A stretch of 38,893 nucleotides of DNA, from NCBI GenBank assembly GCA_020350785.1, contig CP070722.1, positions 297,438-336,330 on the forward strand. The letters run 5' to 3'. Below the pieces are notes generated by a model, which was given only the letters and a program-made list of their open reading frames with translations, did not search any database and was not told the origin of the DNA. Made by a program: the position numbers and the translations under genes. Shown here piece after piece: positions 2,940 through 22,404 of this stretch; the first letter of the stretch is position 1, and every line of letters starts with the position of its first letter. The DNA comes from Gemmatimonadota bacterium (GTDB lineage Bacteria; Gemmatimonadota; Gemmatimonadetes; Palauibacterales; KS3-K002).

Positions 2940-4373
2940 ATGAGCCCGAGCATACTGGACATTTTTGCTGCCGACGCGCGCAGATTCGTTGATCGCCTAC
3001 AGGAGGCGCTGAACACAGAAGGCGAGGCCAGCGCCGACGCCATCCGACGCGCGGCGCGCCGGCTGCACCACGCCGCCGTTTTGGCAAATCACGAGCCGGT
3101 CATGGACGCGGCTGCGGCGCTACAGAAGACGACGGTTCAGGTCATCGCCGGAAGGCGCGAATGGACGGCGGAGCTGAAGGACGTGATTAGGAATGTTGTT
3201 CGGGAGCTGGACTCGGTGGTGAACGCGCTGCCGGCCGGGGACGGCGGGGCGGAGTCGCGACTGCGCAGCGCGGCCGCGACCCTAGTCAGCGAGCGATCAG
3301 GTGAGAGCGCCTACCCGGCGCAGGTTGCCGAGCCGGTCGCTGGCGATGAGGCCGACGCGGTATTGGCGGCGCTGATCAGCGATCTGGGCGACGCGGTAGA
3401 GAGGTTGGAGAGCGATCCGCGCGATCGTGAGCCGCTTAAAACGATGCTTCGTAAGATTCGGCGCCTGCGTGAGCTGCAGCGTATAGAAGCTCTCTCGCCG
3501 GAAGATAGGGCCCTGAGCGCTGTGGAGGAGTTGATACTGCAGATCGCCGATCTCAATGCTACGGTGGGGCCGGGCTACCTCACTGTCTTTCGTCACACTC
3601 GCGAGTTGCTCCAGGGTCTGCGTGCGGGCGGCGCCAGCGCTCCCTCGGTGACCCAGATTGGCGGGCGTGCGGTCGAAGTCGATCGGCTAAAAGACAGCGT
3701 ATTGGAGAAGGTGAGGCGTGCTCGCCAGGTCGTTTGGGTCAGCGATCTCTTCTATCCAGACGGCCCCCACATCGTGGCGTGCCCGCTGGCCGAGGCCAAG
3801 GCGGGGTCGACCGAGCGCTACTTCAACCTCGAAGCCACGCAGCGACTTGAGCGCAGCGAGAGCCTGCGCAAGACGATGCTGGAGTCGGAGACGGAGCAAA
3901 TGCGTTTGGCCGGTGAGTCGTTGGCACACACGCTGCGCCATCTACGCGAGCGCGCCGCTGCCTTCGACCATGCCGCCCTGGGTCGCGTCGTGCGGCGGGC
4001 GGCTGCGGCGCTCCGGGCACAACTGGTACGCCCGCCGGCTCGTCTCAAAGCGCTCGCCAAAGGATTCGGTCCGGTCTTCGCCGGCTTGCGCTCTTACCTG
4101 GATACCGACGATCAGGCCGATCGCGCGAAGGCGGTAAGCGAGGCGGAGACGGCGCTTCATATGGCGATCCTGGGTGGAGAGCCAGATATTCCGGCGGAGG
4201 CTGCCGCGTTCGACCCGGACGCGGCGCTACAGCAGGCGCTCGTACTGAGGACGCGCATCGACGAGCGACTGAGTCGCCTGAGTGGGTCCGAGGTCGAGGA
4301 TCTGCGCGAGGACCTGGAGGAGCTGTTCGATCTGATAGCTCAGTACGTGTCCGCCGGTGCAGAACGCCACTGA
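2940..4373 (+). CDS. Helical 477-residue orphan, possibly Hpt-related
   Basis: The protein is almost entirely alpha-helical, charged, and lacks a signal peptide or membrane segment. Residues 1-65 look like a histidine phosphotransfer (Hpt) domain as found at the N terminus of CheA: ARRLHHAAVLANHEPVMDAAAAL gives a His (43 or 44) followed by a small-residue helix. The Lys-Gly that normally follows the phospho-His is missing, so any Hpt role is doubtful. Further on is a short beta-like stretch (RQVVWVSDLFYPDGPHIVACP, near residues 261-281), and then long helices. It starts at ATG 2940. The nearest Shine-Dalgarno-like run is GGCGGA at 2923-2928. Paralogues of one small membrane family flank it on both sides. 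It could be a signalling or scaffold protein; no catalytic motif is seen. Confidence 0.7.
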   Translation: MSPSILDIFAADARRFVDRLQEALNTEGEASADAIRRAARRLHHAAVLANHEPVMDAAAALQKTTVQVIAGRREWTAELKDVIRNVVRELDSVVNALPAGDGGAESRLRSAAATLVSERSGESAYPAQVAEPVAGDEADAVLAALISDLGDAVERLESDPRDREPLKTMLRKIRRLRELQRIEALSPEDRALSAVEELILQIADLNATVGPGYLTVFRHTRELLQGLRAGGASAPSVTQIGGRAVEVDRLKDSVLEKVRRARQVVWVSDLFYPDGPHIVACPLAEAKAGSTERYFNLEATQRLERSESLRKTMLESETEQMRLAGESLAHTLRHLRERAAAFDHAALGRVVRRAAAALRAQLVRPPARLKALAKGFGPVFAGLRSYLDTDDQADRAKAVSEAETALHMAILGGEPDIPAEAAAFDPDAALQQALVLRTRIDERLSRLSGSEVEDLREDLEELFDLIAQYVSAGAERH

Positions 4374-11199: not shown

Positions 11200-12504
11200 A
11201 TGTCGAATGCGGACTTGATGGAAAAATTGGTGTCGCTGTGCAAGCGGCGCGGCTTCGTGTTTCAGTCGTCCGAGGTCTACGGCGGACTGGGTTCGGTCTG
11301 GGACTATGGTCCACTTGGTGTCGAGCTGAAGCGAAACGTCAAGGAGCGGTGGTGGAAGGAGATGGTGACCTCCCGGGCCGATATCGAGGGGCTAGATGCC
11401 GGCATATTGATGCACCCCGCTGTCTGGGAGGCGAGCGGACATGTCGAGGGGTTCACCGACCCGCTCATCGAATGCAAGAACTGTCATCGTCGGTTTCGCG
11501 CGGACGAAGTGAGAGATCAGTGTCCGCGATGTGGCGTTAGGGATCAATTCACGCCGCCCCGCATGTTCAACCTGATGTTTCGGACATTCATGGGGCCGGT
11601 CGAGGATGAAGCTGCGCAGATCTACCTACGGCCCGAAACGGCCCAGGGTATCTACGTGAACTTTCACAATGTGATGACATCGGCTCGGCAGAAGATCCCG
11701 TTCGGCATCGCGCAGATTGGCAAGGCTTTCCGCAACGAGATCACGCCGGGCAACTTCATTTTTCGGACTCGCGAGTTCGAGCAGATGGAGATGCAGTACT
11801 TCGTGAAGCCCGGCACGGACAAGGAATGGTTCGACTACTGGAGAAACGAGCGGTTGGAGTGGGTGAAGTCTTTGGGTATCCGGCCTGAGAAGCTCCGCAT
11901 GCAGCAGCATACACGTGAGGAGCTGGCCCATTACGCTTATGACGCTTACGACATTCAGTACGAGTTTCCCTTCGGCTGGCAGGAGTTCGAGGGAATTCAC
12001 AATCGGACCGACTTCGATCTAAGCGCTCATCAGGAGCGTTCTGGCAAGAAGCTGGAATATGTCGATGCGGCGGCCAACGAGAGGTACATCCCGTACATCA
12101 TCGAGACCTCGGGTGGGGTCGATCGATTGATGTTGGTGCTGTTGGCGGACGCGTACCGCGAAGAGGAGGTCGAGGGAGAGACACGCGTGCTTCTCAGCCT
12201 CCAGGCAGGATTGGCGCCCGTGAAGGTCGCGGTATTCCCGCTGGTCAAGAAGGATGGTATGCCGGAAGTGGCCCGCAAGATCGCCGACGATCTCATAGGT
12301 CGGATTCCGGTCTTCTACGACGAGTCCGGCTCGATTGGCAGGCGATATCGCCGGCAGGACGAGGCGGGAACTCCTTTCTGCGTGACTGTCGATGGGCAGA
12401 CGCTGGAGGACGGCAGCGTGACCGTGCGCGATCGAGATACGCTTCGACAGGACCGCGTGTCCAGCAGCAAGCTGTCGGAGTATCTGGCTGGAGCGCTCGT
12501 ATAG
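11200..12504 (+). CDS. glyQS: Glycyl-tRNA synthetase, single-chain class II type
   Basis: This enzyme charges tRNA-Gly. The 434-residue protein is the dimeric type of archaea, eukaryotes and some bacteria, not the separate alpha and beta chains of E. coli. It begins with GFVFQSSEVYGGLGSVWDYGPLG, shows a four-Cys zinc site (92, 95, 108, 111) after the first motif, the class II motif 2 region around AQIGKAFRNEITPG, and a C-terminal anticodon-binding domain (from about residue 345, KVAVFPLVKKDG). It starts at ATG 11200 after AGGTGAT. A short hairpin (11093-11106, GCTAG with CTAGC) follows the glycerate kinase stop. No T-box-like leader is seen in the 108-base gap. Confidence 0.96.
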   Translation: MSNADLMEKLVSLCKRRGFVFQSSEVYGGLGSVWDYGPLGVELKRNVKERWWKEMVTSRADIEGLDAGILMHPAVWEASGHVEGFTDPLIECKNCHRRFRADEVRDQCPRCGVRDQFTPPRMFNLMFRTFMGPVEDEAAQIYLRPETAQGIYVNFHNVMTSARQKIPFGIAQIGKAFRNEITPGNFIFRTREFEQMEMQYFVKPGTDKEWFDYWRNERLEWVKSLGIRPEKLRMQQHTREELAHYAYDAYDIQYEFPFGWQEFEGIHNRTDFDLSAHQERSGKKLEYVDAAANERYIPYIIETSGGVDRLMLVLLADAYREEEVEGETRVLLSLQAGLAPVKVAVFPLVKKDGMPEVARKIADDLIGRIPVFYDESGSIGRRYRRQDEAGTPFCVTVDGQTLEDGSVTVRDRDTLRQDRVSSSKLSEYLAGALV

Positions 12505-12558
12505 CCGAGATATTCTGAGCTCGCACCTCACCATCTCAGCCCGAACTGGGGCCGCGAC

Positions 12559-13530
12559 ATGCTGATCAGACGCCTCATCACGCTCGGCGCCGGAGCGGTC
12601 GCGGGCGCGTATCTGGTGGGCCGTTGGCGGCGCAATCAGGCCAAACCGCCGCGGCCTCTGAGAGACCACCGGGGTCGGACCTTGGAGCCGCTGCTGGTGG
12701 AGTTGGAAGGGGGCGACTGCGTGCCGGTGATCGTAGCCGGCGAGGGGCCGGCGGTGGTGCTGATACCGGGTCTGACGGGCGACAGTGGGATATTCAGGTA
12801 TCAGATACCGGCACTATCTTCCGACTATCGAGTCATAGCTCCCAATCTGCGCGTCGACTTCACGGGCGTGGAGAAGAGCTTCGACCAGTTCGCTCGTGAT
12901 CTAGCGAGAGTGCTGGACGCGGTGGGCGCCGATTCGGCATGCTTGTTGGGCCTCTCTTTTGGCGGTCCCATCGCGATGCGCTTCGCGACGCTCTACCCGA
13001 AGCGCGCCTGGGGGCTCGTTCTGACCAACACGCTCGCGCGGGTCGATCTGTCGCACGTCGGGCTCAATCGGACTCTGCTGATACCCGTCGCCCGCTGGAC
13101 GTCCCGCTTTCTGCCTGAACCGCTGATGCGCGAGCTGGCGCAGTACTGGGGTCGACTCGGTGTTTGGGTCTACGACCCCTCCGCCGGAAATGAGCGAATT
13201 ATCGATTACGAGTTGGAGGTCCCGGTGCGCGTGCCGATGTCGGTAGGTGGTGCGCGCATGGATACGTTCAAGGACTGTGATCTGAGGGGCGAGCTCCGAG
13301 GCCTGCAGCAGCCGGCGCTGGTGATCGCGGGATGCTCGGATACCTACACGCCCTGGGAGTGGCAGCACGAGATAGCAGGCCTGCTCGCTAACTCGACATA
13401 TGTGGAGATCCCCTACGGCGGCCATCTTCTGCTGATCTCGCATGCCGAGAGCTTCAACGAATTGGTGATGGAGTGGTTGGCTAGAGTGCGCAGGGCGACG
13501 CCTGTCGCTCTGCCGGACAACAGCTCGTGA
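12559..13530 (+). CDS. Membrane-anchored alpha/beta-hydrolase
   Basis: This is a 323-residue alpha/beta-hydrolase fold protein with a nucleophile elbow GLSFGG (Ser133), a likely acid Asp261 (GCSDTYTP) and a catalytic His289 (YGGHLLL). The N-terminal 21 residues are hydrophobic after two Arg residues and end in GRWRRN, so it is probably an inner-membrane anchor or uncleaved signal. The substrate cannot be predicted; esterase, lipase or haloperoxidase-like relatives all share this core. The stop at 13528-13530 overlaps the ribosome binding site of the next gene, so the two are probably translated together. It is in line with glyQS, 54 bases downstream. Confidence 0.85.
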   Translation: MLIRRLITLGAGAVAGAYLVGRWRRNQAKPPRPLRDHRGRTLEPLLVELEGGDCVPVIVAGEGPAVVLIPGLTGDSGIFRYQIPALSSDYRVIAPNLRVDFTGVEKSFDQFARDLARVLDAVGADSACLLGLSFGGPIAMRFATLYPKRAWGLVLTNTLARVDLSHVGLNRTLLIPVARWTSRFLPEPLMRELAQYWGRLGVWVYDPSAGNERIIDYELEVPVRVPMSVGGARMDTFKDCDLRGELRGLQQPALVIAGCSDTYTPWEWQHEIAGLLANSTYVEIPYGGHLLLISHAESFNELVMEWLARVRRATPVALPDNSS

Positions 13531-13532
13531 GG
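13528..13532 (+). promoter_or_regulatory. Ribosome binding site overlapping a stop codon, setting a TTG start
   Basis: TGAGG overlaps the hydrolase TGA stop and is followed by eight bases before TTG 13541. The first transmembrane helix of the symporter family begins only about nine residues after this TTG, so the next in-frame ATG (13580) would delete needed residues. This supports the TTG and suggests coupling to the upstream gene. Confidence 0.6.
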
Positions 13533-13540
13533 TAGAGGGA

Positions 13541-15025
13541 TTGAGTTCCAAATCCGAAGTCTTCGCTTCCCGCTGGGGGATGATGCTTGCCATGTTGGGC
13601 ATGGCCGTTGGGACCGGCAACATTTGGCGGTTCCCACGTATCGTGGCCACGAATGGTGGCGGCAGTTTTCTGGTTGCCTGGGTCGTCTTCCTGCTGGTTT
13701 GGTCGGTCCCCCTCATTCTGGTGGAGTTCGCGCTCGGCAAGAGCACGCGGTCCGGTACGATCGGCGCGTTCGGCAGGCTCATCGGCAGGCGGTTCGCCTG
13801 GATGGGAGCCTGGGTGGGTTGGTGTGCCACGGCGATCATGTTCTACTACTCGGTCGTCATGGGCTGGTGCATCCGCTATTTCGCCGCGAGCCTAACCGGC
13901 GAGATACCGGGCGCGACGCCTGGCGCTTTTTGGGACCGCTTTGCCGGTTCTTCAGGCGCCCTGCTGACCCACGCTGTGGCCCTGACTCTGGGTGTCCTGG
14001 TGGTCGCCTTCGGCGTTCGCGGGATCGAGCGCGTCGCGCGGGTGCTCATCCCCAGTTTGGTGGTACTCGTGGTCGTTCTGGCGGTACGCGCGGTGACGCT
14101 GCCCGGCGCGGTGCGGGGACTGGAGTTCATGTTTACGCCGGAGTGGAGCCAGCTTTCGAACTATCGTGTCTGGCTCGAGGCGCTGACCCAAAACGCTTGG
14201 GATACGGGGGCTGGTTGGGGACTCATCCTGACCTACGCGGTGTACATGCGCCGTAACGAAGATACGACGCTGAACGCGTTCACTCTCGGTTTCGGCAACA
14301 ATTCGATGTCGCTGTTGGCGGGAATCATGGTTTTGTGCACGGCGTTCGCGTTGAGACCGGACGTCGCTAATGAGATTGTCGGTGCTGGAAACGAAGGCCT
14401 CACCTTCATCTGGGTGCCTCAGCTGTTCGGGACGATGCCGGCTGGCCGTTTCTTCATGGCGCTGTTCTTCTTGGCGTTGGTCTTCGCCGCCTGGACCAGT
14501 CTCATTTCGATGATCGAGCTGGCGACGCGTGTACTGGTTGACTCCGGGATTCCCAGATACCGGGCGATTTGGTGGATCGGCGTCGTGGGGTTCCTGGCAG
14601 GTGTGCCCAGCGCACTCTCGCTCGAGTTCTTCCGCAACCAAGACTTCGTTTGGGGTGTGGGGTTGATGCTGTCCGGTTTCTTCTTCGCCTTTGCCGTCTT
14701 GAGGTACGGTGTGAGAAGATTCCGCCTCGAATTGGTCAACCAGCCCGGGGCGGATCTCAAGATCGGCGTTTGGTGGGAGTGGGCGATAGTCGTATGCCTG
14801 GTGAGCTCGGTGGTCTTGATCGTCTGGTGGTTCCTCCAAGTTCGGGGCGAGGGGTGGGGTGCGGCGTTCGATCCCTTCAGCACGTACAGCATCGGCACCG
14901 TTCTCATGCAGTGGGCGATCGTGGTGGCGGCGTTCTGGCTGGGCAACAATTGGCTGGCCCGGAGATCGGGCGTCGAGGATGGCGGGAGGCTCGAGACGGG
15001 CGTTGGTGAAGAACCGTTGGCTTAG
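13541..15025 (+). CDS. Na+-dependent neurotransmitter:sodium symporter (NSS) family transporter
   Basis: This LeuT-fold transporter of 494 residues brings in amino acids or related compounds with Na+. The family signature is at the start: FASRWGMMLAMLGMAVGTGN, then WRFPR, which builds the first broken helix and part of the Na+ site. About eleven hydrophobic helices follow. The WDTGAGWGLILTYAVYM segment fits helix 6. It uses TTG as start. The substrate is not readable from the motif alone. Tryptophanase lies about 3.3 kb downstream and a MetS-like small subunit candidate about 4.8 kb downstream. In Symbiobacterium an NSS transporter (TnaT) beside tryptophanase carries tryptophan, so tryptophan is a reasonable guess here. 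Confidence 0.92.
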   Translation: MSSKSEVFASRWGMMLAMLGMAVGTGNIWRFPRIVATNGGGSFLVAWVVFLLVWSVPLILVEFALGKSTRSGTIGAFGRLIGRRFAWMGAWVGWCATAIMFYYSVVMGWCIRYFAASLTGEIPGATPGAFWDRFAGSSGALLTHAVALTLGVLVVAFGVRGIERVARVLIPSLVVLVVVLAVRAVTLPGAVRGLEFMFTPEWSQLSNYRVWLEALTQNAWDTGAGWGLILTYAVYMRRNEDTTLNAFTLGFGNNSMSLLAGIMVLCTAFALRPDVANEIVGAGNEGLTFIWVPQLFGTMPAGRFFMALFFLALVFAAWTSLISMIELATRVLVDSGIPRYRAIWWIGVVGFLAGVPSALSLEFFRNQDFVWGVGLMLSGFFFAFAVLRYGVRRFRLELVNQPGADLKIGVWWEWAIVVCLVSSVVLIVWWFLQVRGEGWGAAFDPFSTYSIGTVLMQWAIVVAAFWLGNNWLARRSGVEDGGRLETGVGEEPLA

Positions 15026-15050
15026 CCGGAAAGCTGTCGGGCTTGGCGAG

Positions 15051-15851
15051 ATGGACAAGGAAGGAAGTGGCGGTCGCCTCACCCCCTTCGAGATGGTATT
15101 CGGGGTAGAGCGGCTTGCTGAGGAGGAGTTCCCGGCCATTGCCGAGGAAGCGCGGGCTCGCGCCATCACTGTGGAGCGTCCCTCCGGGTTCGCGCAGTTG
15201 GAGCGAGTCGCAGCGCTGCTTCAGAGGTTGCTTCCCGAGAATGTCGAGCCTGGCGCGTTCGAACGCTATGTCGAGGTCGCCTACCACTGTTTCCATTTCT
15301 GGAAAGCAGGTTGCCCGCTCCTGGTCCTCGAGGCGGCGCTGATCCGCGACCTCGTCGAGTCGCCGCCCGATCTTCGTGGCTGGAGGATCAGATCCGCCTC
15401 CCCGGCCTACTATTTGGAGTTGCCCAAGAACCTCTTCTGGGCCGGCATCGTAGGAGATGCTCCGCCGGAGCCTGTTGAGGGTATTTTCCTGAAGCTCGAT
15501 CCGGAGGATCCGGCCGGAGAGGTCCGGCTGCTGCTGGTTCTCGGCATGCGGCCTCAACGCTACGGGTTCAGCGCTGCGGGGCTGGCGGCCGATCTCGGTA
15601 GGGCCCGCGACCTGGATGAGCCGGCGGCGTTTCGATCGGACCTTCCGGGTGCGGACCTGGCGAAACTGTACTCCTTGAGCCGGAATTCCGAAGGACTGCT
15701 ATTGGTACTGCGGCTTCTGTGGTATCTGGGCATGTATCCGGAAAGCCTAGAGCGGGTAAAGGCCGGCAGCGGGGCGGTCACGGAGGACCTCGACGCTGCG
15801 ACGGCCCTTGACTACTGCAAGGTGCGGCTGATCGAGAGGAGCCGAGGATGA
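15051..15851 (+). CDS. Orphan protein coupled to site-2 protease gene
   Basis: This 266-residue soluble protein has no signal peptide or membrane helix and belongs to no family I recognise. The N-terminal half is helical (AEEEFPAIAEEARARAI, then a Leu-rich helix). The centre has a beta-like ELPKNLFWAGIVGDAPPEPVE stretch, with FLKLDPEDPAGEVRLLLVLG after it. The C-terminal part is helical again. The start at ATG 15051 is the most likely, 25 bases after the symporter stop, though its ribosome binding site is weak. A GTG at 15006 would overlap the symporter. The stop overlaps the next start as ATGA (15848-15851), so it is translationally coupled to the protease gene. It may be a partner or regulator of that protease; this is inference. 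Confidence 0.7.
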   Translation: MDKEGSGGRLTPFEMVFGVERLAEEEFPAIAEEARARAITVERPSGFAQLERVAALLQRLLPENVEPGAFERYVEVAYHCFHFWKAGCPLLVLEAALIRDLVESPPDLRGWRIRSASPAYYLELPKNLFWAGIVGDAPPEPVEGIFLKLDPEDPAGEVRLLLVLGMRPQRYGFSAAGLAADLGRARDLDEPAAFRSDLPGADLAKLYSLSRNSEGLLLVLRLLWYLGMYPESLERVKAGSGAVTEDLDAATALDYCKVRLIERSRG

Positions 15852-16972
15852 ACGGGGGGTTCCGAATCGCGAAGTTCTTTGGCTTTGACGTGCGCCTCGA
15901 TCTATCCTGGTTCGTGGTGTTCTTCCTGGTCCTTTGGACTTTCGCGGAGTCGGTATTCCCATACCGGCATCGCGGCCTGAGCTCGACCGAGTACGGGCTG
16001 ATGGCCGTCGCTGGCGCCCTTCTTTTCTTCGCATCGGTACTGCTTCATGAGTTGGCCCATTCGGCGGTGGCACGTGCGCGCGGCATCCAAGTTGAAGGCA
16101 TCACCCTCTTCATATTCGGGGGCATGGCCCGGATCCGCTCAGAAGCGATGAATCCAAAGGATGAGTTTCTGATCACGGTAGTCGGCCCCCTTTCGAGTGC
16201 GGCGATCGGACTGGCGCTATTGGTCACCGCGTCCATCGGGCGGAAAGTCGGTCTGCCGGTGACGGTAACCGGTGTGGCTGACTACCTGGCGTTGCTGAAC
16301 TTCGTGCTCGCCGTCTTCAACCTGATACCCGGATTTCCCTTGGACGGCGGTCGCTTGCTTCGCTCGCTCGTCTGGCACCTGACGCGTGATCTCCGCAAGG
16401 CGACTCGCTGGGCTTCTCTAACGGGTCGGGGTTTCGGCTTTGTCATGATCGGTCTGGGTATCGTCTATCTGTTTGGAAACAGTCTGATCTTTGGAATGTG
16501 GCTCGTCTTCATTGGCTGGTTCCTTTACCAAGCGGCCGAGTCCAGCTATCGGCAGTTGATACTGCGCAGGATTCTCGAGGGGGTTCGGGCTGAAGAGGCC
16601 ATGACGCGGCACCCAGAGGCTGTACCGGCTGAGCTGACGTTACGGGATCTCGTCGATGATTACTTCCTTCGTCGTCGCTTTGGCGCTTTTCCGGTCGAGG
16701 ACAGCGACGGTAGCCTGTTGGGCCTGATCACGCTCACGCAGGTCAAAGCCGTTGACCGTCATAAGTGGCCGACGATTCGGGTGCGTGAGGTCATGACGCA
16801 GATTTGCGAGGCTGTGAAGGTGCAGAAAGAGGACTCGCTGGCGGAGGTATTGACCAAACTGGAGAGTGCTGGAGTGGGCCGGGCGCTGGTTGTTGACGAT
16901 GGCCGGCTCGAGGGCGTGATCAGCCGAGCGGATGTGGCGGCTTGGCTGGACCGTTATCAGCAGCTCCACTGA
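15848..16972 (+). CDS. Site-2 protease family membrane metalloprotease with CBS domains
   Basis: This 374-residue intramembrane zinc protease belongs to family M50. The zinc motif HELAH is at 67-71 and the third ligand is in NLIPGFPLDGGR (Asp166). About six hydrophobic segments surround them. The C-terminal part (about 250-374) carries two CBS domains, which in related proteins bind adenine nucleotides and may regulate activity. This is the short S2P/CBS form, without the PDZ domains of E. coli RseP. It starts at ATG 15848, overlapping the stop of the preceding orphan by four bases. Possible roles include regulated cleavage of a membrane protein; no anti-sigma factor gene is nearby. Endonuclease III follows 11 bases later. 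Confidence 0.92.
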   Translation: MNGGFRIAKFFGFDVRLDLSWFVVFFLVLWTFAESVFPYRHRGLSSTEYGLMAVAGALLFFASVLLHELAHSAVARARGIQVEGITLFIFGGMARIRSEAMNPKDEFLITVVGPLSSAAIGLALLVTASIGRKVGLPVTVTGVADYLALLNFVLAVFNLIPGFPLDGGRLLRSLVWHLTRDLRKATRWASLTGRGFGFVMIGLGIVYLFGNSLIFGMWLVFIGWFLYQAAESSYRQLILRRILEGVRAEEAMTRHPEAVPAELTLRDLVDDYFLRRRFGAFPVEDSDGSLLGLITLTQVKAVDRHKWPTIRVREVMTQICEAVKVQKEDSLAEVLTKLESAGVGRALVVDDGRLEGVISRADVAAWLDRYQQLH

Positions 16973-16983
16973 GAGTCGAAGCG

Positions 16984-17685
16984 ATGGGAAAGCCTGCCGG
17001 GGCAGGAAGTCGGAAGCGCGGACGCAGTGTGAAAGCCAAGCGGGAGTCGGCCGCTGCGCTGCGCGAGCGTGCTCTGCGGATGGTAGAGGTGCTGAGTGCG
17101 AGCTATCCGGCGCGCATCGAGCTCAATTTCAGTGATCCGCTCGAGCTGGCCGTCGCCACCATTCTCTCGGCTCAGTGCACGGACCGGCGCGTCAACGAGG
17201 TGACGGAGCGGCTATTCAAGAGATATCGGACGGCGGAGGACTACGCGAACGCGGATCCTGAGGAGTTCGAGCAGGAGATCCGGCCGACGGGGTTCTTCCG
17301 GAACAAGACTCGCTCGATACTGGCTTTCGCGCGGACCTTGGTTGAGAGACACGGCGGCGAAGTTCCGGACACGATGGAGGAGCTGGTCGAGCTTGCGGGA
17401 ATAGGGCGAAAGACAGCCAATGTCATCTTGGGCTCGGCCTTCGACAAGAGGGAAGGCATCGCCGTCGATACCCACGTGAAGCGCGTGGCGCGACGGTTGG
17501 GATTGACGCGTGAGAGCGATCCCGATCATGTGGAGCAGGACCTGCTCGAGCTGGTCCCGAGAGAAGGTTGGACGGATTTCGGTCTTCGGCTGATCCAGCT
17601 TGGACGTTATACGTGCACCGCCCGCGGACCGAGGTGCCAGGCTTGTGCTCTTGAGGCGCTATGCCCTAGCGCGCACAGTCATTGA
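16984..17685 (+). CDS. nth: Endonuclease III (DNA glycosylase/AP lyase)
   Basis: This base-excision repair enzyme removes oxidised pyrimidines and cuts the abasic strand. The 233-residue protein has the helix-hairpin-helix block ELAGIGRKTANVILG with catalytic Lys143, catalytic Asp162 (AVDTHVKRVARRLGL) and a 4Fe-4S cluster motif C-x6-C-x2-C-x5-C (Cys211, 218, 221, 227). A basic N-terminal extension of about 20 residues (KPAGAGSRKRGRSVKAKR) precedes the fold. The ATG at 16984 is preferred; an upstream TTG inside the protease gene would add 14 residues. It lies in line with the protease gene. Confidence 0.96.
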   Translation: MGKPAGAGSRKRGRSVKAKRESAAALRERALRMVEVLSASYPARIELNFSDPLELAVATILSAQCTDRRVNEVTERLFKRYRTAEDYANADPEEFEQEIRPTGFFRNKTRSILAFARTLVERHGGEVPDTMEELVELAGIGRKTANVILGSAFDKREGIAVDTHVKRVARRLGLTRESDPDHVEQDLLELVPREGWTDFGLRLIQLGRYTCTARGPRCQACALEALCPSAHSH

Positions 17686-17686
17686 T

Positions 17687-17714
17687 TTGAGTCGCCGGCT
17701 GTGAATAGTATCTG
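17687..17714 (+). promoter_or_regulatory. Candidate promoter before HD-domain and tryptophanase genes
   Basis: TTGAGT (17687-17692) and TATCTG (17709-17714) are separated by 16 bases, in the short gap after the nth stop. The match to sigma70 consensus is partial. The following pair of genes is tightly spaced and would be read from here. Confidence 0.25.
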
Positions 17715-17755
17715 TTGTAGAACAACCACGTAGCGTCGATAGGGAGCTGAGGGTG

Positions 17756-18340
17756 ATGCCATTGGATCGCGGTAACGCACTGGCGCTAATGCAGGAGTAC
17801 ACGGCGAATGAGAACCTTCGCCGGCACATGTATGCCGTGGAAGCGGCCATGCGGGCCTACGCCAGGAAGTTCGGTGAGGATGAGGAGCTTTGGGGTATCA
17901 CCGGTCTACTTCACGATTTCGATTACGAGAAGTGGCCAAACGATCTGCACAGGCCGGATGACGAGCACCCGCTGACGGGTGTGAGGATCCTCCGGGAGCG
18001 GGGTTATCCGGCCGAGATGTTGGATGCTATTCTGGGCCACGCGGAGTACACGGGAGTGCCTCGCGAGAGTCGATTGTCGAGAACGCTGTTCGCGGTAGAC
18101 GAGCTTACGGGTTTCTTGACCGCTTGTGCGCTAGTGCGACCTACGGGACTCAGCGATTTGAAGGTGAAGTCGGTCAAGAAGAAATTCAGGGATGCAAGCT
18201 TCGCTCGTGGGGTGAACCGGGAGGATGTGGAGAAAGGTGTGGCTGAACTGGGCGTGGACTTTTCCGAACATGTACAACTCGTAATCGACGCCATGCGCGA
18301 GATCCAGGAAGATCTCGGCCTGGCGGGCACGGATAGCTGA
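17756..18340 (+). CDS. HD-domain metal-dependent hydrolase
   Basis: This 194-residue protein has the HD phosphohydrolase pattern: His24, His53-Asp54 (GLLHDFDYEKWP), His71, His95 (LGHAEYTG) and Asp115 (AVDELTGF), spaced as metal ligands. Relatives of this compact HDIG type are usually annotated only as phosphohydrolases. The nucleotide or phosphate substrate is unknown. The first codons read GTG ATG; AGGGAG (17741-17746) lies six bases before the GTG and nine before the ATG, so either may be used. Only 16 bases separate it from the tryptophanase gene, so the two likely share a transcript. Confidence 0.85.
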   Translation: MPLDRGNALALMQEYTANENLRRHMYAVEAAMRAYARKFGEDEELWGITGLLHDFDYEKWPNDLHRPDDEHPLTGVRILRERGYPAEMLDAILGHAEYTGVPRESRLSRTLFAVDELTGFLTACALVRPTGLSDLKVKSVKKKFRDASFARGVNREDVEKGVAELGVDFSEHVQLVIDAMREIQEDLGLAGTDS

Positions 18341-18356
18341 GGACGGCTGGTGGGCG

Positions 18357-19736
18357 ATGGCGATCAAGACGATCATCGAGCCATTCAGAATCAAGGCGGT
18401 GGAGCCTATACGGATGAGCACGCGGGAGGAGCGTGAGCGGAAGATCCGCGAGGCGCACTACAACGTGTTTCTGCTTCACGCCGACGATGTACTGATCGAC
18501 TTGCTGACCGACAGCGGAACCGGAGCCATGAGCGCAGATCAGTGGGCCGCCATGATGCGGGGCGACGAATCTTATGCGGGTAGTCGCTCGTGGTTTCGGT
18601 TCGAGGAGTCCGTAAAGCGGCTGTTCCCGTTCAAGCACATTATTCCGACGCACCAGGGTCGGGCGGCAGAAAGGATTCTCTTCTCTGTGACCTGCAAGCC
18701 AGGTGACATAGTACCCAACAACACGCACTTTGACACGACGCGTGCTAATGTCGAGTACCGTGGCGCCAGGGCGGTAGACCTGCCATGTGGCGAGTCGCGC
18801 CAGACGGGTGAGAGGCATCCTTTCAAGGGGAACATGGATGTGGCGGCTCTGGCGAGCCTCCTCGACGAAGAGCGGGCTGCAGTCCCGCTTGTGATGCTAA
18901 CCATCACCAACAACTCCGGCGGCGGCCAGCCGGTCTCGATGGCGAACGTACGCGCGGTGCATGAGATCTGTAAGCGTCACGGCGTGCCGCTCGACATAGA
19001 TGCCTGCCGTTTCGCCGAGAACGCTTACTTCATCAAGCAGCGCGAGGAGGGCTACGCTGGCAAGTCGGTAGCTGAGATTGCCCGCGAGCTCATGTCATAC
19101 GCGGACGGCTGCACGATGTCGGCCAAGAAGGATGGGCTGGCCAATATCGGCGGTTTTCTGGCGACTAACGATGAGGAACTGGCGCGTCAGGAGAGGGATC
19201 TGCTCATCTTGACTGAAGGCTATCCAACCTACGGGGGCCTGGCGGGCCGGGATCTGGAGGCCATAGCGGTAGGCCTGGATGAAGTGGTGCAGGAGGACTA
19301 TCTGCGCTACCGCATCGTGTCGACCGACTACCTCGGCAAGCACATAGCGGAGGCAGGTGTGCCGATCGTGCAACCGCCTGGCGGCCATGCTGTCTACATC
19401 GATGCGGGAGCGTTTCTGGGTCACCTGAAATCGCTGGAGTATCCTGGCATCGCGCTGGCGGTGGAGTTGTATCGTGAAGCGGGCATCCGAGCGGTCGAGA
19501 TCGGCAGCGTCATGTTCGCGCATTACGATCCCGAGACCGGCGAAGAAACAGCGGCCGAGAAGGAGCTACTGAGGCTTGCGATTCCGCGGCGTGTTTACAC
19601 GCAGAGCCACATCGATTTTGTAGTGGAGGCGATCATCGATGTGTGGAGGCGCCGCGAGGACATATCTGGATACCGCATCGTCTATCAAGCACCGTTCCTT
19701 CGTCACTTCACGGCCAGGTTCGAGCCGCTGACCTGA
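18357..19736 (+). CDS. tnaA: Tryptophanase
   Basis: This PLP-dependent beta-eliminating lyase of 459 residues splits tryptophan into indole, pyruvate and ammonia. The PLP lysine is Lys258 in CTMSAKKDGLANIGGF. The general fold is as close to tyrosine phenol-lyase as to tryptophanase. The residues known to separate the two all read as tryptophanase: Asp126 in HFDTTRA (Thr in phenol-lyase), Ile382 in AVEIGS (Arg in phenol-lyase) and His450 in LRHFTARF (Phe in phenol-lyase). Tyr73 and Arg102 are also in place. The start at ATG 18357 matches the family N terminus. No TnaC-like leader peptide fits in the 16-base gap. The gene sits between an HD protein and a MetS-like peptide, with an NSS transporter upstream. 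Confidence 0.9.
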   Translation: MAIKTIIEPFRIKAVEPIRMSTREERERKIREAHYNVFLLHADDVLIDLLTDSGTGAMSADQWAAMMRGDESYAGSRSWFRFEESVKRLFPFKHIIPTHQGRAAERILFSVTCKPGDIVPNNTHFDTTRANVEYRGARAVDLPCGESRQTGERHPFKGNMDVAALASLLDEERAAVPLVMLTITNNSGGGQPVSMANVRAVHEICKRHGVPLDIDACRFAENAYFIKQREEGYAGKSVAEIARELMSYADGCTMSAKKDGLANIGGFLATNDEELARQERDLLILTEGYPTYGGLAGRDLEAIAVGLDEVVQEDYLRYRIVSTDYLGKHIAEAGVPIVQPPGGHAVYIDAGAFLGHLKSLEYPGIALAVELYREAGIRAVEIGSVMFAHYDPETGEETAAEKELLRLAIPRRVYTQSHIDFVVEAIIDVWRRREDISGYRIVYQAPFLRHFTARFEPLT

Positions 19737-19785
19737 CCGAGGCGGTCGTGGGGGGCTCGAGGGGCGCGATTGTCGTGGGCTCAGG

Positions 19786-19796
19786 GGAGGAGAAGG
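19786..19796 (+). promoter_or_regulatory. Ribosome binding site of the 38-residue MetS-like gene
   Basis: GGAGGAGAAGG ends three bases before GTG 19800. Its GGAGG core (19786-19790) sits nine bases before the start. Such a strong site supports translation of an otherwise easily missed tiny gene. Confidence 0.6.
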
Positions 19797-19799
19797 TTT

Positions 19800-19916
19800 G
19801 TGAGTACGAGCGCGATTGTGGCTATGTTGCTGACCTGCGGCTTTATATGGGGCGGTTTCCTTATCCTCCTGGCGTATGCGATCCGACGGGAGAGGGACAA
19901 GTCGGCCCAGAGCTAG
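19800..19916 (+). CDS. MetS-like small subunit of an NSS transporter (38 residues)
   Basis: This tiny single-span protein starts at GTG 19800 and ends at TAG 19916. It reads MSTSAIVAMLLTCGFIWGGF, then a short hydrophobic continuation and a basic, charged end (RRERDKSAQS). The M-S-T-S-A-I start, the Met before the hydrophobic run and the W-G-G at residue 17 match the MetS/MaAIMP small subunit of bacterial NSS transporters, which is needed for transport by MetP in Corynebacterium. Normally it is encoded right after the transporter; here it follows tryptophanase, about 4.8 kb from the only NSS gene in the window. It lies 63 bases after the tnaA stop. A role as helper of a tryptophan transporter is inference. 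Confidence 0.72.
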   Translation: MSTSAIVAMLLTCGFIWGGFLILLAYAIRRERDKSAQS

Positions 19917-20032
19917 GCATGGCGCGGCGGCGCTGTTTGGCGCTGTCGTTGCTTGGACGTTTGCCGTGGGATTTGGGATCCTGTGTTGGGGATTATCGTT
20001 GTTGAGAACTGCAACTCAGAGAGGTGGGGGCA

Positions 20033-20929
20033 ATGGCAGATCCGATTATTCCACGCGAGTTTCACCGCGTCTCGCGGCCGTCGCTCATGCGTTCGCTGGC
20101 GATGGTGCCCGCTGCGGCCGTTCTTCTTTTTCTCGTGACCGTACCCTTTTCATGCACGACGGTGGCCGAGTACGAGGTCGCCGTTCTGAAGAACCCGATT
20201 AACGGAAACGTATCGCCGGAGTTTTTTCCTCAGGGTCTCTATTTCGCGGCGCCGGCCATCTTCTGGAAGCAGTACTCGAAGTATCCCACTCGCGAGATCC
20301 AGTATCCTCGCAGCGGCGGCAGTGAGCAGGCGCAGGCGCTGACCTCGGATCAACTAAGCATCATGGTCGACGCGGCCTACCGTTATCGGGTCGTGCCCGA
20401 GAACGTGGTGAGCTTGTTCCTGATCGTGGGTGACATGAATGACGTCGACGAATACGTCTATACCACATACCGTACGGCTCTGCGCGATGCGATTGCGGAG
20501 CTGAGCGGAACGGAGATTCTTTCGACCGACCGACTGAGAATCGCGTCGCGGGTCGAGGAGCTGATGGACGAGGAGCTGACGCCGAAGGGTGTCGAAGTTG
20601 TGCGATTTTTCGTGCGAGAGATCCAGCCGCCGCCGGCGGTCAGGCAGGCGATCGAGCTGAAGTTGCAGCGTGAGCAGGAAGTACAAGCTCAGAAGTTCCA
20701 GACGGAGATCGTCCGCGAGCAGGCGGAGCAGAAGAGGCAGGAAGCGTTGGGTATCCGCGACGCCCAGAATATCATTGGCGAGAGCCTGACGCCCGCGTAC
20801 CTGTCCTATTACTACATGCAGACATTGCAGGAAGTCGGCAACAAAGAGGGCAACGTGATCATCGCGCCGACGGAGGGGGGCAACCTCCTCTTCGACGTGC
20901 CCACGGCGGGCAGACGCTCGGGACAGTGA
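20033..20929 (+). CDS. SPFH/Band 7 (prohibitin-like) membrane protein
   Basis: This 298-residue protein has one N-terminal hydrophobic segment (about residues 18-40), then the SPFH/Band 7 domain (about 45-215, with PQGLYFAAPAIFWKQY and LTPKGVEVVRFFVREIQPP) and a charged helical region (EQEVQAQKFQTEIVREQAE). The end is a short tail. Members form oligomeric rings on membranes and act in lipid microdomains or hold proteases such as FtsH. No NfeD or FtsH gene is next to it. It starts at ATG 20033 with AGAGG eight bases upstream; a GTG nine bases earlier is possible. The Cys in the hydrophobic stretch does not form a clean lipobox. Confidence 0.87.
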   Translation: MADPIIPREFHRVSRPSLMRSLAMVPAAAVLLFLVTVPFSCTTVAEYEVAVLKNPINGNVSPEFFPQGLYFAAPAIFWKQYSKYPTREIQYPRSGGSEQAQALTSDQLSIMVDAAYRYRVVPENVVSLFLIVGDMNDVDEYVYTTYRTALRDAIAELSGTEILSTDRLRIASRVEELMDEELTPKGVEVVRFFVREIQPPPAVRQAIELKLQREQEVQAQKFQTEIVREQAEQKRQEALGIRDAQNIIGESLTPAYLSYYYMQTLQEVGNKEGNVIIAPTEGGNLLFDVPTAGRRSGQ

Positions 20930-20944
20930 AAGCCGGCCTTGCGT

Positions 20945-20983
20945 TCGGGCGCCCCAGGGGGAAAGATGTAAGGGGGCGCCCGA
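20945..20983 (+). terminator. Perfect 11-bp hairpin after the SPFH gene
   Basis: TCGGGCGCCCC (20945-20955) pairs without mismatch with GGGGCGCCCGA (20973-20983) across a 17-base loop. It starts 16 bases after the SPFH stop and ends just before the ribosome binding site of the next gene (20992-20997). There is no T-run, so it may be a Rho-type end, an mRNA stability element or a translation-controlling structure. Confidence 0.5.
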
Positions 20984-21005
20984 CAGGCATCAGGAGGCGA
21001 TCACA

Positions 21006-21671
21006 GTGAAGATGCGGTCTAGCCGTCCCTCTTTTTTCGGGGTCGCGTTGGGCGTTCTTATCGTGGCATGTGGCGGCCACACCCCACCTCCCTACGACAA
21101 TCCACCTGTGTTGGCAAATCGCGATGATATCGAAGCGGCGATGCGCGCCGTCGGAGCCGGCCTCGAGGCGCGGGTCGTGCTTTTCCTTCGCATCGATGCC
21201 AGCGGCCAGGTGCAGAGTGTTCGAGTGGGCCGGAGCTCAGGGAGCGTAGAGCTCGATGATGCGGCCATGTGGATCGGCCGCCAGATGCGTTTCGAGCCGG
21301 CTCGTAGCGAGGGGAAAGCGGTTCCTGCACTTGTCGAGATCCCGGTCACATTTGATGTCGTGAAGCAGGTAGTTCGATCGGCGCGTCTTCGGAACTCGGA
21401 GGAGATCGCGGCGCGGATCGTGCGCGAACACGGGGACGTTCGGGGCAAGGCGCGTTTTCGAATCCTCGTCGGTACCGAGGGCTGGGTCATCGACCGACAA
21501 GACCGCCGTCCCTTCAGCGAGGCGGCGCAAGCGGCTGCCCGAAAACTGATTGATGACGTGATGTTCACGCCTGCCTATCGTGGTGACCGGGCCATCGTCA
21601 GCTGGGTCATGCTGATATTCGAGTTTGCGGGACCCGAGACGCGGGTCTACATCGATGCCCCGGGTGCTTAA
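21006..21671 (+). CDS. Lipoprotein with two TonB_C-like domains, copy 1
   Basis: This 221-residue predicted lipoprotein has a signal ending in VLIVAC, with the lipid-attachment Cys at 22. After a Pro-rich linker, residues 45-115 form a TonB C-terminal-like domain (VVLFLRIDASGQVQSVRVGRSSG, then MRFEPARSEGKAVPALVEIP). A second, more diverged one follows at about 145-210 (RILVGTEGWVIDRQ, then FTPAYRGDRAIVSWVMLIF). TonB_C domains usually contact outer-membrane receptors. Here there is no TonB transmembrane anchor, only a lipid. It starts at GTG 21006, eight bases after GGAGG. Copy 2 follows 64 bases downstream. The function is unknown; a periplasmic adaptor is possible. Confidence 0.8.
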   Translation: MKMRSSRPSFFGVALGVLIVACGGHTPPPYDNPPVLANRDDIEAAMRAVGAGLEARVVLFLRIDASGQVQSVRVGRSSGSVELDDAAMWIGRQMRFEPARSEGKAVPALVEIPVTFDVVKQVVRSARLRNSEEIAARIVREHGDVRGKARFRILVGTEGWVIDRQDRRPFSEAAQAAARKLIDDVMFTPAYRGDRAIVSWVMLIFEFAGPETRVYIDAPGA

Positions 21672-21735
21672 CGGAGGCGGTACCGAGCGGCTGAGGGGGT
21701 CTATGCAGAGGCGAAGTGGGCGATGCGTAGGGTTA

Positions 21736-22404
21736 ATGCGCAGGCCTGACGAACCCTGGGCGTTTCTGTCTTTGGTGCTGTGCGTGTGTGCGGCGGCATG
21801 TGGGCATGCCCCTCCCACGTATGATGTGCCGCCGATCCTGGCGAATCGAGAAGAGGTTTCGGAGGTACTCGAGTCGTTGGGCGCCGTGCTCGAGGCACAG
21901 GTCGTATTGCTGATCGAGGTCGATGAGGAGGGTGTGCCTCGTCAAGTGCGTGTGGCCGAGGGTTCGGGTGATCGTCATCTCGACGCGCTCGCTGTACTCG
22001 CTGGACGGCAGATGCGCTTTCGGCCGGCGCGCTACCAGGGTCGTCCGGTCTCGGCGTGGGTGCAGATGCCCGTGAGTTTCGAGCTTCCGCCCCCTGTAGT
22101 GCAGCCGCCGACACTGCTGAATGGAGATGCGGTCGCGCAAATGATGGCGGATCTTCACGCCGATCTGCGAGGCTCGGTGCGGCTTCGCATACTGCTCAGT
22201 CCTTTGGGGATAGTCGATGATGTCAGGGCGCGCGAAGGGTCAGACCCAGAGGTGCGTGAGGCGGCGCTGGGCCTGGTCCCAAGGCTGCGTTTCGCGCCCG
22301 CCATGGCGGAGGGGCGGCCGACGGAGGCGCGCCTGGTCGTGTTGTTCACCTTCGCTGGGCCTACTTCCGAGGTGATCATCGAGCCTTCGGAGGAAGGCGA
22401 CTAG
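21736..22404 (+). CDS. Lipoprotein with two TonB_C-like domains, copy 2
   Basis: This 222-residue protein is homologous along its whole length to the gene just upstream, so the pair arose by tandem duplication. The shared blocks include PPTYDVPPILANREE, GRQMRFRPAR and the second-domain LRILLSPLGIVDD. The start at ATG 21736 is preferred because it puts the acylated Cys at position 22, exactly as in copy 1. An ATG at 21703, with a stronger GAGGGGG ribosome binding site, would make an overlong signal. The lipobox (AAAC) is weaker than in copy 1. The sequences have diverged strongly, which suggests different partners or tasks. It is convergent with the YheT-type hydrolase. Confidence 0.78.
   Translation: MRRPDEPWAFLSLVLCVCAAACGHAPPTYDVPPILANREEVSEVLESLGAVLEAQVVLLIEVDEEGVPRQVRVAEGSGDRHLDALAVLAGRQMRFRPARYQGRPVSAWVQMPVSFELPPPVVQPPTLLNGDAVAQMMADLHADLRGSVRLRILLSPLGIVDDVRAREGSDPEVREAALGLVPRLRFAPAMAEGRPTEARLVVLFTFAGPTSEVIIEPSEEGD

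Follow-up and report, generated by a model that had tools for sequence, protein, structure and literature searches.

A GTG-started open reading frame of 38 codons, located at positions 19800..19916 (+ strand) of the 38,893-nt stretch of Gemmatimonadota DNA analysed here (the window), was confirmed by sequence comparison to encode a genuine MetS-family small subunit of NSS (SLC6-type) sodium symporters. We consider it probable, at roughly 85%, that the peptide serves as small subunit to the NSS transporter whose gene is at 13541..15025 (+ strand), that the ancestral gene order was NSS-metS, and that other genes were inserted between the two later; its binding to the transporter, its topology and its effect on transport are proposed by analogy with a characterised pair. 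The peptide adds a member to an already known family, and the interesting part is that a small subunit detached from its transporter gene has been retained.

The encoded peptide, MSTSAIVAMLLTCGFIWGGFLILLAYAIRRERDKSAQS, contains a FIWGG motif and has a basic C-terminus (RRERDK), and its 19-residue hydropathy peak of 2.41 predicts one transmembrane helix. The segment just 5' of the GTG, GGGAGGAGAAGG, carries a Shine-Dalgarno element recognised from sequence and duplex energy (GGAGGAGAAGG, 19786..19796, + strand). The duplex predicted between the 20 nt upstream of the start and the 16S tail has an energy of -11.9 kcal/mol, which was equalled or bettered by only 3% of 800 random ATG or GTG sites in the window. 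There is an alternative in-frame TTG at 19770, and the homologue alignments begin at the GTG.

The peptide passed the cut-offs of 2 curated models, with 29.4 bits against Pfam PF16951 (cut-off 26.2) and 31 bits against NCBIfam NF033493, the MetS family NSS transporter small subunit (cut-off 25), the latter alignment spanning residues 1-29. The same models recognised 20 and 23, respectively, of 24 homologues from the class at E <= 0.01. In the alignment of these 24 homologues, M1, W17, G18, and G19 were shared by all sequences and E31 and K34 by nearly all, and the single short helix together with the conserved WGG places the peptide among the MetS-like proteins. Assignment to the MetS equivalog of the methionine/alanine importer (NF033494) was rejected, at 25.7 bits against a cut-off of 70. 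A family profile gave 69.7 bits in the window, and its highest score in reversed sequence (1.28 Mb) was 12.3 bits; this profile contains the window sequence, while the curated models were built independently. Homologues were identified in 45 of the 60 nearest genomes (E <= 1) and in 124 of 295 genomes of the class. Comparisons with 4 relatives from the same family yielded dN/dS values of about 0.13-0.19, with the differences among the 5 genes falling mainly at third codon positions, as under purifying selection. A profile search against solved structures gave no match for the peptide, the best being an irrelevant 17-bit match. The strong ribosome binding site, the GTG-started frame and the single helix with the W-G-G features of NSS small subunits, all proposed in a preliminary description of the window, were thus borne out. 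That description had staked its proposal on a MetS-family profile match and on conservation in relatives with the tryptophanase gene tnaA; the matches are those given above, and the peptide was present in all 5 same-family genomes that contained tnaA, the window's own included.

The window is part of a 4.09-Mb, single-contig genome with 3 NSS genes and one MetS. Every assigned gene from the alpha/beta hydrolase gene at 12559 to the end of the Band 7 gene at 20929 lies on the + strand. Downstream of the NSS gene are a frame whose protein has no Pfam match (15051..15851), which also separates the NSS and peptide genes in relatives from the family, and genes for an M50 peptidase with CBS domains (15848..16972), an endonuclease III-like protein named from its sequence (EndoIII, 16942..17685), and an HD-domain protein (PF01966, 17753..18340), the usual 5' neighbour of the peptide in the Gemmatimonadota. 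They are followed by tnaA (18357..19736), which is found between the HD and peptide genes in some lineages only, by the peptide gene, and by a gene for a Band 7/SPFH protein (PF01145, 98 bits; 20024..20929), which is a downstream neighbour only; all are on the + strand. The successive gaps, for which some start codons are the longest or nearest plausible choice, measure 25, -4, -31, 67, 16, 63, and 107 nt from the NSS gene to the Band 7 gene.

The NSS gene thus lies upstream of the peptide gene in the same directon, at a distance of 5 genes and 4.8 kb. The preliminary description had set the peptide apart from the NSS gene in a split module; the separation stands, but since the run from the NSS gene to the peptide is on one strand and no gap in it exceeds 67 nt, the split is that of a stretched operon, and the run would presumably be co-transcribed. 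A scan of 12500-21100 identified no sigma-70-like promoter, and terminator-like sites were not more frequent there than in shuffled sequences, which is weak evidence that speaks neither for nor against one run. In 3 same-family relatives (L040, L041, L042), an extra hydrophobic frame of ~150 amino acids was located between the peptide and Band 7 genes, and the hydrophobic frame in the ~107 nt that are left in the window (19917-20023) may be a remnant of it. Further downstream, at 21006-22404, 2 successive similar-looking open reading frames of 221 and 259 amino acids look like a lipoprotein-like gene that was duplicated in tandem.

The gene order from NSS to Band 7, including tnaA, was kept in 4 relatives from the same family. 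In another genome from this family (G002), in which tnaA was not found, the peptide gene is located directly 3' of the HD gene and the NSS gene is also kept. The peptide gene usually follows the HD gene in the sister family f2, where the NSS gene is ~8 kb to >40 kb away, mostly on the opposite strand, or is located on a different contig. Family f4 has the peptide gene 9-30 nt behind an NSS gene whose product is 63-67% identical to that in the window. The relatives matched with the NSS protein were mostly metagenome-assembled genomes (MAGs) of Gemmatimonadota, the closest among the matches listed being CP070815.1.

A scan with the NSS alignment of one genome per species (GTDB) yielded 80 loci, of which 36 were not titled Gemmatimonadota and represented Acidobacteriota, KSB1, Ignavibacteria, Bacteroidota, and others, one with an unassigned phylum; L134 and L154 were kept out of this count, as the phylum is not clear from their record titles. 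In 29 of these 36 loci, the start of the peptide is -1 to 158 nt past the end of the NSS match, whereas L168 was the only Gemmatimonadota locus of the scan with the peptide directly behind the NSS gene. In most Gemmatimonadota, genes lie between the two or the pair is unlinked, and both are retained. Intermediate layouts within the phylum were NSS-EndoIII-HD-peptide, with 1.5-1.7 kb between the pair (L112, L115), and NSS-ORF-HD-peptide (L113, L114). In 13 genomes, the 2 genes shared a contig but not a strand, and in G081 they were 0.95 Mb apart. Some of the NSS loci contained stop codons. In family f8 (L215 = G063, L216 = G263; G236), the NSS match was broken after about residue 280 with ~220 bp between the pieces, and the longer open frame together with this gap suggests an insert in the transporter.

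The simplest reading of these layouts is that genes were inserted stepwise between NSS and metS, although the order of the steps is our inference. From an ancestral NSS-metS order, the genes for EndoIII, the HD-domain protein, the protein without a Pfam match and the M50 peptidase would have come between the two in the Gemmatimonadota, giving the stretched run, with tnaA probably among the later and more variable insertions and present in some lineages. In other Gemmatimonadota, the NSS and metS genes would then have become unlinked and both kept. The function, topology and binding of the peptide are modelled on the MetPS precedent from Corynebacterium glutamicum, in which metS is cg1167 (Trotschel et al. 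2008, doi 10.1021/bi801206t, as cited in PMC2807442 and PMC6123352). If it resembles MetS in its relation to MetP, the peptide would be a single-pass membrane protein with a short N-terminus outside and the basic C-terminus inside, the F-[VI]-W-G-G face of its helix would pack against the transporter, and it would be needed for, or tune, Na+-driven amino acid uptake.

The partner of the peptide is, with high confidence from sequence comparison, the NSS transporter of the window, because its orthologues in other phyla are directly followed by the peptide gene and because the two co-occur. Among the 295 genomes of the class, 118 contained both the peptide and an orthologue of the window NSS, 6 only the peptide, 9 only the NSS, and 162 neither (phi 0.90); counted by hand at the level of genera, the corresponding numbers were 48, 1, 3, and 69. 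These figures, obtained per genome and per genus, partly reflect shared ancestry. The NSS cut was set so as to leave out 5 genomes without the peptide whose NSS, at 44-47% identity, we regard as a non-orthologue; with these genomes counted in, phi is about 0.86 (hand calculation).

Several of the exceptions look like assembly gaps: 2 of the NSS-only genomes have a tnaA gene that reaches the contig edge, 4 come from incomplete assemblies in which the HD locus is missing, and in one of the peptide-only genomes the NSS gene is cut by a contig edge. In G063, G263, and G292, which have both the NSS and HD loci, the peptide was not detected in the stretches read. No adjacent peptide was detectable at the orthologous NSS loci L178, L180, L184, L188, and L190; these transporters may do without the subunit or have another in its place. 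The peptide is encoded with the NSS transporter in one same-strand run without being adjacent to it, and the preliminary description, which had implied the positions of the NSS and tnaA genes correctly, was right to view it as a small subunit whose gene stands apart from that of the transporter.

The NSS protein (494 amino acids) matched PF00209 with 198.4 bits (cut-off 27). Its AlphaFold2 model, computed on 40 orthologues (pLDDT 88, pTM 0.89), has a helix pattern that we read as 12 transmembrane helices and is closest to LeuT (TM-score 0.85), so that both the Pfam match and the predicted LeuT fold place it in the NSS/SNF family. MhsT was the best match among solved sequences, but the substrate-site segments of the window NSS are strongly unlike those of MhsT and LeuT: the subfamily has GMAVGTGN in TM1 and TQNAWDTGAGWG in TM6, where MhsT has GSAVGLGN and SQAFFTLSLGMG. 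Position 221, which the MhsT alignment equates with LeuT Thr254, is occupied by Asp in 32 and by Ser in 8 of the 40 orthologues. Position 253 (LeuT Asn286) is Asp only in 3 of the cases with Ser at 221, and position 257 (LeuT Glu290) is Ser in all 40. The combinations at 221/253/257 were D/N/S in 32, S/N/S in 5, and S/D/S in 3 sequences. Thr254 is a Na1-site residue in LeuT (PMC10707687), and we speculate that Asp-221 may be a relocated carboxylate that replaces the chloride-site carboxylate. A broader reading, which we offer tentatively and at somewhat less than even odds, is that the window NSS represents a widespread two-component NSS subfamily, defined by the above TM1 and TM6 segments and the TM6 carboxylate at the Thr254 position, which may depend on MetS strongly enough for both genes to be kept when unlinked, with assembly in trans from separate transcription units.

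The preliminary description had further joined the symporter, the small subunit and the tryptophanase into a module for tryptophan import and degradation. In a dedicated module of this kind, the NSS protein, with the peptide as its subunit, would import tryptophan, and TnaA would convert the tryptophan to indole, pyruvate and ammonia. The enzyme itself fits this role, with 698.8 bits against the tryptophanase subfamily model NF009709 (cut-off 285) and with D126, I382, and H450 as in solved tryptophanases; tyrosine phenol-lyases have T, R, and F at these positions, which we take to set the specificity. The subfamily model and the active-site residues together identify it as a tryptophanase, and it scored below the cut-offs of the TnaA equivalogs TIGR02617 (516.1 vs. 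825.8 bits) and NF053783 (604.3 vs. 750 bits) and of the tyrosine phenol-lyase equivalog (581.4 vs. 720.7 bits). A frame of 943 amino acids elsewhere in the same genome (G000:C1:601647-604289) contains 2 tandem tryptophanase-like domains, 45% and 33% identical to TnaA of the window, and similar long frames were seen in several relatives.

All 5 same-family genomes with tnaA have NSS, tnaA and the peptide gene in one run, tnaA is located 107-235 nt upstream of the peptide gene in 5 genomes of other families, and MhsT binds tryptophan, all of which would suit such a module. Across the class, however, 32 genomes contained both the peptide and TnaA, 92 only the peptide and 70 only TnaA (phi -0.16), and phi was -0.10 for NSS and TnaA. 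Of the 124 genomes that carry the peptide, 92 are thus without tnaA, and both the peptide and the NSS persist without it even within the same family (G002). The differences from MhsT and LeuT at the substrate site also speak against the module. The three genes stand together in the 5 same-family genomes with tnaA, but neither linkage nor co-occurrence of tnaA with the pair is conserved in the class, linkage being limited to some lineages. We reject the tryptophan module as a general explanation and consider a dedicated module improbable in the window itself; a local association in this family is possible, as the runs in these 5 genomes allow for a lineage-specific link, but such a link is not what maintains the peptide.

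It is more doubtful still that the peptide serves another of the 3 NSS transporters of the genome, or several of them. The 2 other NSS proteins are 33-34% identical to that in the window, and in G216 the start of a MetS-like peptide (L214, about 3104-3166) is located behind an NSS gene of another kind (34% identical), which suggests that members of the family may also have partners among other NSS types. However, no MetS gene was identified near the 2 other NSS genes of this genome, and it is the orthologues of the window NSS that carry the peptide gene directly behind them and co-occur with it. MetS was also absent beside the plasmid-borne NSS matches in Persicobacter and Haloferax.

A tna leader peptide or other regulatory frame, as might be suspected of a short frame with a Trp residue adjoining tnaA, has a negligible probability and was rejected, because the peptide gene lies 3' of tnaA, is conserved without it and matches a transporter-subunit family. 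Nor do we give any appreciable weight to a chance frame without a product, for despite the mere 38 codons and the GTG start, the curated family scores, the strong Shine-Dalgarno element, the dN/dS values well below 1 and the broad conservation led us to reject it.

Few studies have dealt with the small subunits of bacterial NSS (SLC6-type) transporters, and annotation readily misses them. The retention of the subunit gene in a phylum where it has moved off the transporter gene provides a natural experiment, and it argues for a functional partnership on grounds other than gene adjacency. The transporter-peptide pairs named here are candidates for structural work. As tnaA is a variable neighbour, the pairing bears on transporter biology and not on tryptophan use, and a neighbouring gene such as tnaA should not be read as indicating the substrate of the transporter.

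The open literature that we searched on MetPS, TnaT and NSS small subunits yielded almost nothing, and no paper on TnaT. The TnaT protein of Symbiobacterium is an NSS transporter encoded near a tryptophanase, an arrangement that the window resembles, although here the linkage to the tryptophanase gene is present only in some lineages and tryptophan transport by the NSS protein is putative. The predicted NSS structure shares the LeuT fold with MhsT and LeuT, but the model has 12 helices against 11 in MhsT, and TM1 (AVGTGN against AVGLGN) and TM6 differ from those of MhsT and LeuT, for which we know of no small subunit. The peptide fits the NF033493 family, from which we found no difference. As far as MetPS is described in the articles that cite the original study, it is alike in combining an NSS transporter with a small subunit that is short, has a single helix and belongs to the same Pfam family, whereas the window peptide is distinguished from MetS by its low score against the MetS equivalog and by a gene that is located 5 genes away from that of its transporter.
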